A DNA stretch of 23,119 nucleotides from a virus. Location: positions 1 through 23,119 of the IMG/VR virus record IMGVR_UViG_3300047550_000029, one strand, 5' to 3'. Below are positions 15,464 to 21,059 of this stretch, piece by piece. The notes below the pieces were generated by a model, which worked only from the letters and a program-made list of their open reading frames with translations, did not search any database and had not been told where the DNA came from. Numbering within the stretch: the stretch's first letter is position 1; every line of letters starts with the position of its first letter. Both the position numbers and the translations under genes were made by a program.

Positions 15464-15623
15464 TTTGCACCTCTGCCCTGCGAGTGTATTGCCGTTTCGG
15501 TGGAGGATCTGCCTGTTTCAGCGCAGCAATCTCCTGCTCCAACTGGCGAATACGCTCACGCAATTCGTGAATGGTTTGGTCAAAATCTCGACGTAGAACG
15601 ATGTTTCCCTGCGGCATTAACAT
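15456..15623 (-). CDS. Small coiled-coil protein between terminase and portal, 55 aa
   Basis: This short gene fills the gap between TerL and portal. ATG 15623 shares a base with the TerL stop (TGATG), and its own TGA lies inside the first codons of the portal gene (stop 15458-15456, portal ATG 15463-15461). A start four codons earlier at 15635 is possible but has no ribosome site. The product has a heptad-like helix FDQTIHELRERIRQLEQEI and a basic tail PPPKRQYTRRAEVQ. Small coiled-coil proteins here may assist terminase docking or capsid assembly, but I know no named family. Confidence 0.65.
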   Translation of the reverse strand: MLMPQGNIVLRRDFDQTIHELRERIRQLEQEIAALKQADPPPKRQYTRRAEVQNG

Positions 15624-16876
15624 CAAACCACCCATTTTGCACTATGTTTAATCGGTTTACCCCAATCATCATTTGACATCATTTCCAGTGACTCCGCAAG
15701 ATAACGCCAAGCATCAGCAGCGTGAGAATGCTCATCGTGCAATGGCGCTCCAGCCTCCTGCGTGACCTGATTGATAGCCCGTCTGTACCGTTTCAGATGG
15801 TTGACTAACTCCATCGTCTTGTCAGCATCGAAATAAGCCCTTGGAAAGGCCATCCTAGCCATTCTGATGCCTTCCTCTGGGTTGCCCCTTGGCAGCACGG
15901 TAACGCGCCTTCCAAGCGTTTCTAAGAGGTTTTGGGTGGATTTACCAGTCTGGAAGTTCTTGTTTGCACCATCGTGCGGGATGAAGTCTGTTCCCCATCT
16001 CCATTTCCTCGACTCGATCTCCATGACATAGCTGTCAATGGTTCGATGAGAGTCCTCGATGAAGTCAATGATCCTGACTTCTGACGCAACCTTCTGGACA
16101 AAGATGATCGACATGGAGTCGTTCCATCCCAAATCCCAGACAGTGTGGACTTTCAGTGTTGGATCGTATGGCACAGACCTGATCCGGCCTTCTCGCTGTA
16201 GAGCTTCAATCTCATTTGCGTAGATCGCACCGTCTACAGCAGGTCTGCATCGACCCTCCCAGACTGTCAGATACCCAGTCGGATCTCTGTCTAGCCAGTC
16301 TCTGCGCTCTTTGTCGAGTTCAGGAGGAAACCAAGGGTTGTCAGACCAATTGACCTCACAGACCCATGAGTCAGACGGTGGATGCGCGACAAACCGAGTA
16401 AAGGTCTCATCCGTATCGAGTTCAGGATTGAAGCTGATCCAGATTTCTGATGCTGGCTTGCGGATGGTCGGGATCAAAACATCCCAGGACTTACGGGTGA
16501 CAACCTGGGCTTCTTCCACCCAACATATGTCAGTCCCTTCGTAGGACTTCATATTCGCCACACCTTGCTGGCGAATACCTGCAAAAGTGAATTCTGTCCC
16601 GTTGGAACCTATGATGCGGTTCTCCTGCACCTCATACAGGCTATCTAGGTTGAGCAGACTGATCTGATCCTTCAGCAGTCTATGCACAGACTCCTGAATG
16701 GATTTCTGCGTCTCCCTAGCGCATAGCACCCTGATCTGCTTGGATGCTCCGAGCGCTACCAGTGCTCTAGCAATCGACCAGGACTTACCAGACCCTCGTC
16801 CACCATGCAGGATCTTGTATCGCTTTGGCTGAAAGAGCGGTAAGAGCTTATTCGGAATCTCGACCTTCTGCCTCAA
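15623..16876 (-). CDS. terL: Terminase large subunit (packaging ATPase/nuclease)
   Basis: A 417-aa packaging motor of the PBSX/Terminase_3 type. The ATPase half shows Walker A G25-GRGSGKS32, Walker B with the catalytic Glu in ICWVEEA (117-123) and a coupling motif ISFNP (147-151). The nuclease half has WDLGWND (247-253), HDGAN (301-305) and HAADAWRYL (385-393), supplying the acidic metal ligands of the RNase H-like fold. The start appears to be TTG at 16876: it gives RQKVEIPNKLLPLFQPKRYK, the normal family N-terminus, and AGAGGTGG lies about six bases upstream. It cuts concatemeric DNA and pumps it through the portal. Its stop overlaps the next small gene (TGATG). Confidence 0.93.
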   Translation of the reverse strand: MRQKVEIPNKLLPLFQPKRYKILHGGRGSGKSWSIARALVALGASKQIRVLCARETQKSIQESVHRLLKDQISLLNLDSLYEVQENRIIGSNGTEFTFAGIRQQGVANMKSYEGTDICWVEEAQVVTRKSWDVLIPTIRKPASEIWISFNPELDTDETFTRFVAHPPSDSWVCEVNWSDNPWFPPELDKERRDWLDRDPTGYLTVWEGRCRPAVDGAIYANEIEALQREGRIRSVPYDPTLKVHTVWDLGWNDSMSIIFVQKVASEVRIIDFIEDSHRTIDSYVMEIESRKWRWGTDFIPHDGANKNFQTGKSTQNLLETLGRRVTVLPRGNPEEGIRMARMAFPRAYFDADKTMELVNHLKRYRRAINQVTQEAGAPLHDEHSHAADAWRYLAESLEMMSNDDWGKPIKHSAKWVV

Positions 16877-17210
16877 CTCCGACCACCTCTAGGATTGCTG
16901 CTGTTTTGATTGGCTCACCATCAATACCAGAATGCTCGACAACCTGTTTCTCTTTCCATCCGGCTCGAGTCTTGAGCCAGAAGATCATTGCTGTCGTATT
17001 CCCTGCTTTAGCCTGTTGGAACAACGTCTGAGCGACCGCGGCATTAGCCTCCATTCGCCCTTCGGTCAGTTCCTTCTTGTAATGCTTGGTGAGAGTGTCG
17101 TGGTCAATCTCTAGCTTGTCTGCAATGTCAACGTAGCGAACACCGACAGCAGATAGCGTCTTGACTAGCCGACGATCCTCGTCTGTTGGTTTATGCCGCT
17201 TGCCTTGCAT
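16848..17210 (-). CDS. terS: Terminase small subunit-like DNA-binding protein
   Basis: A 120-aa protein directly upstream of the large terminase. Residues 8-50 (PTDEDRRLVKTLSAVGVRYVDIADKLEIDHDTLTKHYKKEL) fit a helix-turn-helix; residues 55-85 (ANAAVAQTLFQQAKAGNTTAMIFWLKTRAGWKE) are the helical segment usually seen in small phage packaging proteins. It should recognise the packaging site and feed DNA to TerL. Both ends overlap neighbours (20 bases with the methyltransferase, 29 with TerL), which argues for coupled expression. The ribosome site is weak. Identification relies on position and pattern. Confidence 0.75.
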   Translation of the reverse strand: MQGKRHKPTDEDRRLVKTLSAVGVRYVDIADKLEIDHDTLTKHYKKELTEGRMEANAAVAQTLFQQAKAGNTTAMIFWLKTRAGWKEKQVVEHSGIDGEPIKTAAILEVVGVEAEGRDSE

Positions 17211-18444
17211 TTTTTATATCCGAAAGATTGTTGAATGTTTCCCCTGTTGCCTCTAGCGTTGCTTGTTTTCCGGTGAAGTCTTGCCAGCGTTTTACGATGA
17301 CATCGCAATATTTTGGGTCGAGTTCCATACTTCGGTTGACTCGTCCGGTCTTCTCGCAGGCAATCAAAGTCGAGCCTGAACCTCCAAACAGATCAATAAT
17401 GACGTCTTCGCCCTTGCTGCTGTTGTTTATTGCTTCTTCCGGCAAAGCAACTGGCTTTTGAGTTGGATGCACGTAGCTGGCTTGTGCATCACGACCAATC
17501 TTCCAAATTGTCGTCTTTGATCTGTCCCCGCAATAAAAATGCTTACCTGAACCTTCTTTCCACCCGTAAAGGATTGGCTCATGTTGCGCTCGATAGTCCT
17601 GCCAGCCCATGCCAGCCGATTGTTTAACCCAAATAACAGTTGATGATTTCTTGAATAACTCTCCAAATGTCTTCTCAAAAGCGAGCTTGGGAGCAGTTTG
17701 ACTGTCTGGATGACAGACATAAATGCAAGCAAGCGGCTTCATGATCGAATGATAAGTCGCAAAAACATCCCGGCAAAATTGCTCAAAAGACTCATCCGAC
17801 ATATTGTCGTTCTTAATCGGCCCCAACTTATTCTTTTCTCCTCTTCCTTCATACGCAACATTGTATGGAGGATCAGTAAAAACCATGTCTCCTTTAACGC
17901 CGCCCATGAGTTTTTCTGCCTGTTCGATGCTTGTACTATCCCCGCACATCAACCTATGCTTACCAAGCAGCCACACATCCCCTAGCTTGGTTACCGGATC
18001 AACCGGAACCTCTGGAACCTCATCCTCGTCTGTCAGCCCTTCCGTAACCTCTACCGGCATCAACGCAGCAATCTCATCTGCTGAGAATCCTGTCAGGTCT
18101 GTGTTGAACCCTAAATCTTTCAGGTCTGCAAGCTCAATCGACAGCAGGTTGTCATCCCACCCAGCATTCAGAGCGAGCTTATTATCAGCCAGGATGTAAG
18201 CCTTGCGCTGCGTCTCTGACAGATGACTCAACCTGATACAAGGCACTTCTGACAGGTTTAGCTTTCGAGCAGCCATCACCCTGCCGTGACCGGCAATGAT
18301 GCTGTTGTCGTCTGCTATCAAGACAGGGTTGTTGAACCCAAACTCTCGGATGCTGGCAGCAATCTGGGCAACTTGCTCGTCCGAGTGTGTACGCGCATTC
18401 CTGGCGTATGGAATCAGCTTGTCGATTCCAATCTTCTCTATCAT
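17191..18444 (-). CDS. ParB-domain / DNA methyltransferase fusion (beta-class N4/N6)
   Basis: A 417-aa two-domain protein. Residues 1-130 form a ParB/sulfiredoxin-like nuclease-type domain, with IIAGHGRVMAARKL (G51-R60 region) and LSETQRKAYILADNKLA. Residues 155-395 are an S-adenosylmethionine-dependent amino-methyltransferase with the circularly permuted order: D191-P-P-Y194 (catalytic), target recognition region, H326-PTQKP (motif X) and F353-GGSGST (SAM binding). This fusion is common in phages and prophages, where it probably protects phage DNA from host restriction or marks it for packaging. It overlaps TerS by 20 bases, so it is tied to the packaging genes. TAGGAG lies 5 bases before ATG. 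Confidence 0.9.
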   Translation of the reverse strand: MIEKIGIDKLIPYARNARTHSDEQVAQIAASIREFGFNNPVLIADDNSIIAGHGRVMAARKLNLSEVPCIRLSHLSETQRKAYILADNKLALNAGWDDNLLSIELADLKDLGFNTDLTGFSADEIAALMPVEVTEGLTDEDEVPEVPVDPVTKLGDVWLLGKHRLMCGDSTSIEQAEKLMGGVKGDMVFTDPPYNVAYEGRGEKNKLGPIKNDNMSDESFEQFCRDVFATYHSIMKPLACIYVCHPDSQTAPKLAFEKTFGELFKKSSTVIWVKQSAGMGWQDYRAQHEPILYGWKEGSGKHFYCGDRSKTTIWKIGRDAQASYVHPTQKPVALPEEAINNSSKGEDVIIDLFGGSGSTLIACEKTGRVNRSMELDPKYCDVIVKRWQDFTGKQATLEATGETFNNLSDIKNARQAA

Positions 18445-18452
18445 TCCGACTC

Positions 18453-19145
18453 CTAACGGGTCATCGGTTTCACTCGATCCTTAATCAGCCTTTCGATCTC
18501 TGGATCACCCATCTGCTCCGGTGTTGGTGCAAACAATGCTCTCTTACGATTGTCTGTGGTTGTTGCCGGTTCAGACAAATAGTATACAGCGATTGAGTTT
18601 CTGGTTACATCAGCAGGACATTTGATTGGATCAGGCAGTCCATGCCATGAGCCTCTAGTGTCGAAGATCACTGCCCTGTTGAACTTCGGCTCAATGACCT
18701 TTGCAAGAGTTCTGCTGTCCTTGTACAGGCCCAACCCACCACCCCAGGACGATTCCCATGCAGGAGACAGGTAAACAATAAGGTTAAGGCGACGTTGCAA
18801 ATGTAGCTTTGGATGGATGTTGTAATCCAGGTGAACATTGAGCTTCCCTCCTCTGCTGTGCTGATGCCAGCCACCACCGTGTAGTCCTTGGTCAGCGAAC
18901 AGATCCTCGTCTACCATCGCTTCCAGGGACTGTGTGAACTTGTCGCTGGTTAGCCAAGCAAAGGTCTTGTATGTCTCTGGTGGGAACTTGTGCCAGTCGT
19001 TGCAGGTTCGCTTGACCTCTAACGGATTGTCATACCGAAACCAGCATGGATCGTCTGGCTGCGGGAACTCTTTTGCTAGCTGATCTGGATTGGTGAAGAA
19101 GTCATCTATCACACAATGCCAGTATGGATCGTGGTTTACGATCAT
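18453..19145 (-). CDS. 2-oxoglutarate/Fe(II)-dependent oxygenase
   Basis: A 230-aa double-stranded beta-helix oxygenase. The iron triad is visible as H105-L-D107 and H168, and R182 (TRNSIAVYYLS) is placed to bind the 2-oxoglutarate carboxylate. SPAWESSWGGGLGLY and SWHGLPDPIKCP are typical of the prolyl-4-hydroxylase-like branch, which hydroxylates proteins or small molecules. It starts by ATGA overlap with the zincin gene and its stop TAG forms part of the TAGGAG site of the methyltransferase gene. Phages often carry such enzymes; the substrate is not known. Its position among sugar-transferase genes suggests virion protein modification, and next to a methyltransferase DNA modification is an alternative. 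Confidence 0.85.
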   Translation of the reverse strand: MIVNHDPYWHCVIDDFFTNPDQLAKEFPQPDDPCWFRYDNPLEVKRTCNDWHKFPPETYKTFAWLTSDKFTQSLEAMVDEDLFADQGLHGGGWHQHSRGGKLNVHLDYNIHPKLHLQRRLNLIVYLSPAWESSWGGGLGLYKDSRTLAKVIEPKFNRAVIFDTRGSWHGLPDPIKCPADVTRNSIAVYYLSEPATTTDNRKRALFAPTPEQMGDPEIERLIKDRVKPMTR

Positions 19146-20183: not shown

Positions 20184-20483
20184 TCACTTGCCCTTGTTGC
20201 GTTCGCTGATAGCTTTAGCTTTAGCCTTAGCGTCTGCCTTGGATGACGCACCCCAGGCTCTCAGTGACAGCAGCAAACGGGTTGGCTTGCCATCCTTGTA
20301 CTCCGGCCCAGGCATACCACCCATCCGAGCCAGGAATGATGCCCTGCGAGGATTGTCACCAGACTTCACCGGAGCTTTCAGGTCTGATCCTGGATTTGCT
20401 CTTTCGTAGGACTTCCTGCCAGCCTCATTCAGCCCACCAGAAGGACTTTTACCTGCCTTGCGAGTCCATGCTGGCGACTTCAT
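20184..20483 (-). CDS. Conserved phage protein, 99 aa (DUF6321-like)
   Basis: The sequence pattern AWTRKAGKSPSGGLNEAGRK, then NPGSDLKAPVKSG, NPRRASFLARM and PTRLLLSLRAWGASSKADA matches, from memory, a widespread small phage/bacterial protein of unknown function (DUF6321). The basic C-terminus (SKADAKAKAKAISERNKGK) looks like a helix. Start and stop are both coupled: ATG overlaps the mini-gene stop and its TGA is one base from the next ATG. The high conservation of the Gly/Pro/Arg-rich motifs suggests a nucleic-acid or capsid contact, but no function is established that I can name. Confidence 0.7.
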   Translation of the reverse strand: MKSPAWTRKAGKSPSGGLNEAGRKSYERANPGSDLKAPVKSGDNPRRASFLARMGGMPGPEYKDGKPTRLLLSLRAWGASSKADAKAKAKAISERNKGK

Positions 20484-20557
20484 TTCTTTGGGTACTTTGG
20501 AGCGTTGTTCTTGGCTGGCTTAGGCTTTTTGTACTTCGGCTGATTAGTAGTTCCCAT
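20480..20557 (-). CDS. Mini-gene, 25-aa Lys/Pro-rich basic peptide
   Basis: A very short reading frame fills the space between two genes and is coupled on both sides: its ATG shares a base with the upstream stop (TGATG at 20559-20555) and its TGA overlaps the downstream ATG (ATGA at 20483-20480). The product starts MGTTNQPKYKKPK and ends APKYPKK; 9 of 25 residues are lysine, with five prolines and two KY pairs. It should be unstructured and strongly basic. The perfect stop-start geometry on both ends makes chance unlikely. A role such as DNA, RNA or capsid binding is inference only. Confidence 0.6.
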   Translation of the reverse strand: MGTTNQPKYKKPKPAKNNAPKYPKK

Positions 20558-20904
20558 CAATCTTCCTCCATCATCTTTGCCATCTTAAGCATGATCTTGT
20601 GCTTCTCAGTCATGCCCTTGACAGGCCCACCAGACAACCAGCGATCACACACATAATCCTCTGAACACCGGAAGTCCCATCGAGCGCAATAGCCGATGTC
20701 GTCCTCGTCAACGATCTCCTGCATTTCCTCTGGCAGACCAGAAACCATGCACTCGATCATCTCCGGGGTTTGCAGGAACCGCGCACAGTTCCCACAACTC
20801 ATCTCATCATCTTCGGTTTCGGTATAACCAGCTTTGGACTCAGCCTCGGCCTTGTTCCGATCATTGACCTTCTGATCCTGCGTTGAGACTGGACAACCGT
20901 TCAT
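20557..20904 (-). CDS. Small cysteine-rich, probably metal-binding protein, 115 aa
   Basis: The protein has seven cysteines, six of them clustered: C37-x2-C40-x11-C52-x20-C73-x6-C80-x5-C86, with aromatic residues beside them (CARF, GYCARWDF, VCDRW). This spacing suggests a Zn2+ or Fe-S site or a disulfide-stabilised fold. The N-terminal 35 residues are polar and probably disordered; the C-terminus (KHKIMLKMAKMMEED) is a Met/Lys-rich helix. The start at 20904 is supported by ATGA overlap with the upstream gene, and the stop overlaps the 25-codon gene (TGATG). No enzymatic motif is visible. Confidence 0.7.
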   Translation of the reverse strand: MNGCPVSTQDQKVNDRNKAEAESKAGYTETEDDEMSCGNCARFLQTPEMIECMVSGLPEEMQEIVDEDDIGYCARWDFRCSEDYVCDRWLSGGPVKGMTEKHKIMLKMAKMMEED

Positions 20905-21059
20905 TTCGCCCTCTTTGGCATCTTTTTGTACGCAGACTTAGGGGTTGCCTCGATCATCTCTTTAGCAACCTTCTGCGGGACTCCGGTCTGCTTTGCAACC
21001 TTCTTTGACCCGGCTGCTGCGTACATCAACCGCTGCTGCTGCTTGCTGGTGATCGGCAT
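20901..21059 (-). CDS. Small basic phage protein, 52 aa (PITSKQQQRLMYA type)
   Basis: The protein begins MPITSKQQQRLMYAAAGSKK and ends in a Lys-rich tail (KKMPKRAK). I know the pattern 'P(I/V)TSKxQQRxM.A' followed by GVPxxVAKEM as a recurring small phage protein of unknown function. ATG 21059 is one base after the stop of the previous gene (TGA-A-ATG); a longer ORF from 21173 would run deep into that gene and is rejected. It is probably mostly helical and strongly positively charged, so nucleic-acid or virion binding is possible but unproven. Its stop overlaps the next start (ATGA). Confidence 0.65.
   Translation of the reverse strand: MPITSKQQQRLMYAAAGSKKVAKQTGVPQKVAKEMIEATPKSAYKKMPKRAK

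Follow-up and report, generated by a model that had tools for sequence, protein, structure and literature searches.

The DNA analyzed here, referred to throughout as the window, is a virus record 23,119 bases long. It comes from a tailed phage whose portal is of the SU10 type and whose large terminase belongs to Terminase_3. Matched by portal against annotated phages, the window comes closest to an uncultured Manatee Spring phage (59.8% identity) among the best 15 of 303 records; of the isolates in that group, Methylophilales phage Venkman ranks first (53.1% over 86%). An array of small genes and the terminase genes together form one close-packed run that ends in TerL, with the array lying upstream of the terminase genes. 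The features that concern us are listed below.

20480..20557, minus strand: MICRO, a 25-codon gene encoding MGTTNQPKYKKPKPAKNNAPKYPKK (ATG at 20557-20555, TGA at 20482-20480)
20565..20569, minus strand: Shine-Dalgarno-like GGAGG, 7 nt before the MICRO ATG and inside the end of the Cys-rich gene
20555..20559, minus strand: TGATG joint, a 1-nt overlap of the MICRO start with the stop of the Cys-rich gene (from the sequence)
20480..20483, minus strand: ATGA joint, a 4-nt overlap of the MICRO stop with the DUF6321 gene start, whose ATG is at 20483 (from the sequence)
20557..20904, minus strand: CYS, gene for a Cys-rich acidic protein of 115 aa, pI 4.4, with 35 viral relatives
20184..20483, minus strand: DUF6321 gene, 99 aa, pI 10.7 (PF19846, E 1.3e-23; phrog_4689, E 5.3e-33)
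20901..21059, minus strand: TSKQ, a small basic gene of 52 aa (phrog_16759, E 1.2e-12)
15623-16876, minus strand: TerL (Terminase_3, E 2e-31)
16848-17210, minus strand: putative TerS, the frame preceding TerL, labeled from its position

Between the array and the terminase genes, the stretch 17191-19145 carries one gene for a 2OG-Fe(II) oxygenase and another that combines ParB-N with DNA methyltransferase domains.

The initial annotation had proposed that TGATG at the start and ATGA at the end fit a 25-codon frame between the Cys-rich and DUF6321-like genes, and the window sequence confirms this arrangement, with a -4 or -1 overlap on each side of MICRO. A ribosome-binding site is also present in the window, in the form of the GGAGG 7 nt upstream, and a GGA-type purine run, under a permissive pattern, precedes MICRO in all 18 distinct upstream contexts. 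The description of the product as very basic and Lys/Pro-rich is likewise borne out, as the peptide has a net charge of +8 and a pI of 10.4, with 8 Lys and 5 Pro in 25 residues, and the Pfam match listed above upholds the DUF6321-like identity of the downstream neighbor.

The stop-start geometry had been the main argument for calling this frame a gene, and here the initial annotation does not hold up. Under a permissive definition, the window contains two short frames that are overlapped at both ends on the minus strand, one of them spurious, and none on the plus strand, while 60 dinucleotide shuffles of the window gave a mean of 1.1 such frames and a maximum of 4. By itself the stop-start geometry of MICRO is no more than chance, and therefore it does not alone make MICRO a gene. 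The open frame taken alone is weak and uninformative evidence as well: among 12 distinct copies, one antisense frame across MICRO is open in all 12 and the sense +1 frame in 11.

What decides the gene status of MICRO is its conservation in relatives, which is far beyond chance. We used 35 viral loci that were found through the Cys-rich neighbor only, without use of the MICRO peptide; one locus that ends at the match (L116) was dropped, leaving 34 loci and the window, or 35 slots. An intact frame of 25-28 codons is present in 26 of these slots (in L106 the automated call had placed the ATG one codon earlier), the gene is absent altogether from nine, and none holds a broken copy, no slot showing a frameshift or internal stop. 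Length differences among relatives are in whole codons. The 26 intact copies comprise 12 distinct DNA sequences with 27 variable columns, of which 22 fall at third, three at second and two at first codon positions, and the pooled pN/pS is 0.096. A codon model gave lnL -273.81 with omega free and -299.71 with omega fixed at 1 (2dlnL 51.8), rejecting neutrality; because the parameters outnumber the codons of the alignment, this figure is only indicative, although its direction is plain.

MICRO thus codes for a genuine protein whose amino acids are under purifying selection, and the prediction that relatives would carry a short frame at the same place under such selection was borne out. That MICRO is a real gene despite its 25 codons is strongly supported by its conservation in the neighbor-anchored slots. 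The opposite view, that MICRO is merely an open frame arisen by chance where two real genes adjoin, can draw on the double-overlap geometry, which arises about 1.1 times per shuffled window, but it is countered by the conservation, by the codon-position pattern and by the movement of the frame as a unit (below). We consider it extremely improbable and reject it on slot conservation, pN/pS and the codon model, though the geometry alone is compatible with chance. In each of the nine slots without MICRO, another gene comes straight after the Cys-rich gene, coupled or nearly coupled to it by joint geometry, and since MICRO is missing there it is dispensable in some relatives and not essential everywhere.

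A wider set of copies was gathered from IMG/VR with exact back-translated patterns. PKPAKNNAP matched 49 contigs and MGTTNQP 60, and from both patterns we obtained 52 contigs with MICRO, or 53 copies including the window, in 33 distinct DNA forms and 10 distinct peptide forms. Eight of the 60 MGTTNQP contigs are not members, seven being unrelated (L164, L165, L167, L170, L171, L172 and L174) and one a fusion (L168). Residue conservation in the 53 copies is partly built in because they were picked by peptide pattern; the Cys-rich-anchored slots are the unbiased set in this respect. A third pattern, YKKKPKPAK, matched 39 IMG/VR contigs and added no new MICRO contig, and the wider start pattern MGTTxQPK matched 16, of which the new ones, L182 and L183, both hold unrelated frames; members that differ at all three pattern sites would escape this search.

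Beyond these viral contigs, MICRO has few likenesses. Searching 50,697 annotated phage records with the 28-mer (tblastn, E<=10) gave no match, although the low-complexity filter may hide some, and one pattern scan of cellular genomes gave two matches, neither of which holds a MICRO-like frame. Solved structures yielded no match beyond one at E 2.4, which we take as chance. Pfam gave no family at E<=1 for either the 25-mer or the 28-mer, DUF6321 (PF19846) and DUF6496 (PF20106) included, and PHROG gave none for the 25-mer (E<=1) or the 28-mer (E<=0.1), although peptides this short may have no profiles. A search of the open-licence PMC literature found nothing on Lys/Pro-rich phage peptides. MICRO represents a real and narrow family of phage micro-genes that has no name; the family is new, although its kind is already known. 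It also illustrates how comparison alone can establish a phage gene of just 25 codons, a length often overlooked by gene finders.

The neighbors of MICRO change while its joints persist. A downstream NTGA joint is present in all 53 copies and reads ATGA in every one but L131. There AAG replaces AAA as the last MICRO codon, and the same overlap supplies a GTG start to the following gene (GTGA). The upstream joint is a 1-nt overlap in 44 of 53 copies and a 1-nt gap (TGAGATG) in the other nine. Three families lie upstream, namely CYS in 40 copies, DKPRP (phrog_34011) in 11 and TSKQ (phrog_16759) in two, and five lie downstream: DKPRP in 23, DUF6321 in 12, CYS in 11, IKRG (phrog_7595) in four and NKAG (phrog_17747) in two. 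The remaining downstream case is L131, which was classed as an edge and has a GTG-started IKRG-like frame there. MICRO is a shuffled unit, closely joined to its neighbors in varying places of the small-gene array, and it shows that phage mosaicism can have so small a gene as one of its independent units. Because both joints persist in almost all contexts, one could suppose that the frame serves as a relay that carries ribosomes between genes, its amino acids being immaterial. We regard this as very unlikely, since the amino acids are conserved despite wide variation at synonymous sites, as the low pN/pS attests, and since the nine slots lacking MICRO join CYS directly or nearly directly to the next gene.

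Across window positions 20184-21059 and loci L001-L080, roughly ten kinds of small, mostly basic genes can be recognized, mainly with start-stop overlaps. Of 80 DUF6321-anchored loci, 68 have at least two typed array genes, in 30 different orders, some of these arrays being shortened by contig ends. TSKQ leads the typed array genes in every array that contains it. The 198 distinct array joints include 170 of the -4 type and 15 of the -1 type (185 together), two gaps and 11 others; taken singly, the -4 and -1 counts are approximate, as some TTGATG joints before MICRO were booked as -4. Ten of 11 array products, two MICRO forms among them, have a pI of 10.3-10.7, and the eleventh is CYS at 4.4. 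A quick tree was built from 35 upstream GT1 proteins, which represent 62 loci after rows identical in protein and array were dropped. On it there are at least five changes in the presence of MICRO, 16 in its immediate neighborhood and 18 in the whole array string; these counts are rough because 8 of the 32 inner branches are open and two end branches are long, and some forks are weak. More unusual than MICRO itself, then, is its setting in a reshuffled array of small genes that is almost fully start-stop joined, and partners that change across standard joints offer a natural test set for the function of the array.

The joint pairs around MICRO share three to four bases (28 distinct cases, median three), and with so few shared bases we reject the precise excision of MICRO by direct repeats at its joints. 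The joint pairs around DKPRP and GLYAN share up to 14 bases, and when all genes are pooled, nine or more bases are shared in 21 of 107 joint pairs, compared with 0 of 1148 interior-ATG controls. Short repeats at the joints could allow precise gene exchange for DKPRP and GLYAN. At L085:4401-4587, for example, the 12-base run GAAGAAATGAAG occurs at both DKPRP joints, and the window, which has no DKPRP gene, holds a joint of nearly the same sequence.

The genes around MICRO give some indication of the company it keeps. The N-terminus of TSKQ resembles phrog_22033, a 'virion structural protein' (E 4.7e-6), and both TSKQ and IKRG show partial likeness to PHROG head or virion families. DUF6321 forms the end of an annotated 'structural protein' in cyanophage S-P4, whose family, T4-GC119, is called hypothetical in PMC3037559. 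The link of MICRO's neighbors to the virion is weak. The open-licence PMC literature yielded nothing on DUF6321 or DUF6496. For the CYS protein, Pfam gave no match at E<=1, the best PHROG match stands at 0.038, and matches in the PDB are weak, the best (E 0.036) being to a kinetochore protein. The annotation high potential iron-sulfur protein is carried by a Cys-rich gene similarly placed in MW202462 and by an OQ999401 gene 32.3% identical to CYS; nothing was found in the open-licence PMC literature on high potential iron-sulfur together with phage and auxiliary metabolic.

We suggest that MICRO encodes a coupled, disordered, nucleic-acid-binding peptide that acts in head assembly or packaging, a tentative reading to which we give somewhat less than an even chance. 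It is the function we favor given the basic array products, the run into the terminase genes and the virion and head likeness of the neighbors, and the nucleic-acid-binding or capsid-associated role offered in the initial annotation would fit the charge, the basic neighbors and the place upstream of the terminase genes. Ribosomes ending the upstream gene would re-start on MICRO, aided by the purine run encoded in the end of that gene, and would then re-start on the gene that follows. Coupling through -4 and -1 overlaps is established in bacteria and archaea, according to PMC10666635, and the MICRO peptide is therefore probably made in step with its neighbors; it would also be made late, expression at that time being suggested by the position of MICRO in the run leading into the terminase genes. 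With less certainty than the coupling, the Lys/Pro-rich peptide may be unfolded and bind DNA or RNA by its charge, and, with the other small basic proteins, it may be an accessory of head assembly or DNA packaging.

Two other readings are live rivals to the packaging role. MICRO could be a small partner or chaperone of a specific neighbor, most likely the acidic CYS protein, held by opposite charge (pI 10.4 against 4.4), which we judge unlikely overall even though CYS adjoins MICRO in 51 of 53 copies (upstream in 40, downstream in 11) and overlapping gene pairs are enriched for complex subunits (PMC10666635). The copies in L130 and L173 do not adjoin CYS, which in L130 is two genes on, and CYS genes occur without MICRO in nine of the 35 slots. 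It is quite improbable, in our estimate, that the peptide is directed at the host, where it might bind the ribosome or nucleic acids, for example, and so alter host gene expression. Its size and composition are like those of proline-rich antimicrobial peptides, but its Pro content is a mere 5 of 25 residues, and its place in a close-packed run into the terminase genes suggests late expression. Small phage proteins often act on hosts (PMC11323111).

Returning to the packaging role, we can extend it to the array as a whole, although the extension is speculative and we hold it to be doubtful. The roughly ten small, mostly basic proteins and the acidic Cys-rich one would make up a mix-and-match kit, in which start-stop joints on most genes would give coupled, balanced synthesis in any order; phages would reshuffle the kit to tune DNA condensation and packaging, and the 25-28-residue peptide would be its smallest module. 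If it is true that the array products condense or package DNA, tailed phages would possess a modular packaging kit.

Parts of this arrangement have counterparts in known systems. The coupled -4/-1 pairs described in PMC10666635 and PMC6728339 have the same ATGA and TGATG/TAATG joints as the MICRO array, whereas MICRO, at 25-28 codons, is joined on both sides and its partners vary, the coupling here being predicted from sequence. DUF6496 (PF20106) is connected to MICRO by a single case, the L168 fusion (L168:1125-1307), in which MICRO's MGTTNQPK stands ahead of a DUF6496 protein (residues 9-55, E 4.1e-12), while neither the 25-mer nor the 28-mer itself matches DUF6496. That fusion gene is apparently the first in its run, with AAAGGAG upstream. 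The J proteins of microviruses, which are DNA-binding packaging peptides, have a size and strong positive charge like those of MICRO; microviruses, however, are small ssDNA phages, whereas the phage that carries MICRO is tailed and has TerL and a portal of the SU10 type. Other phages, too, have small basic frames ahead of DUF6321, one example being the 37-aa gp51 of Methylophilales phage MEP402. It differs in sequence and is without the MGTTNQP or KPKPAKNNAP core, but, like the MICRO product, it is very Lys-rich and its gene stands directly before DUF6321, shortly upstream of the terminase.
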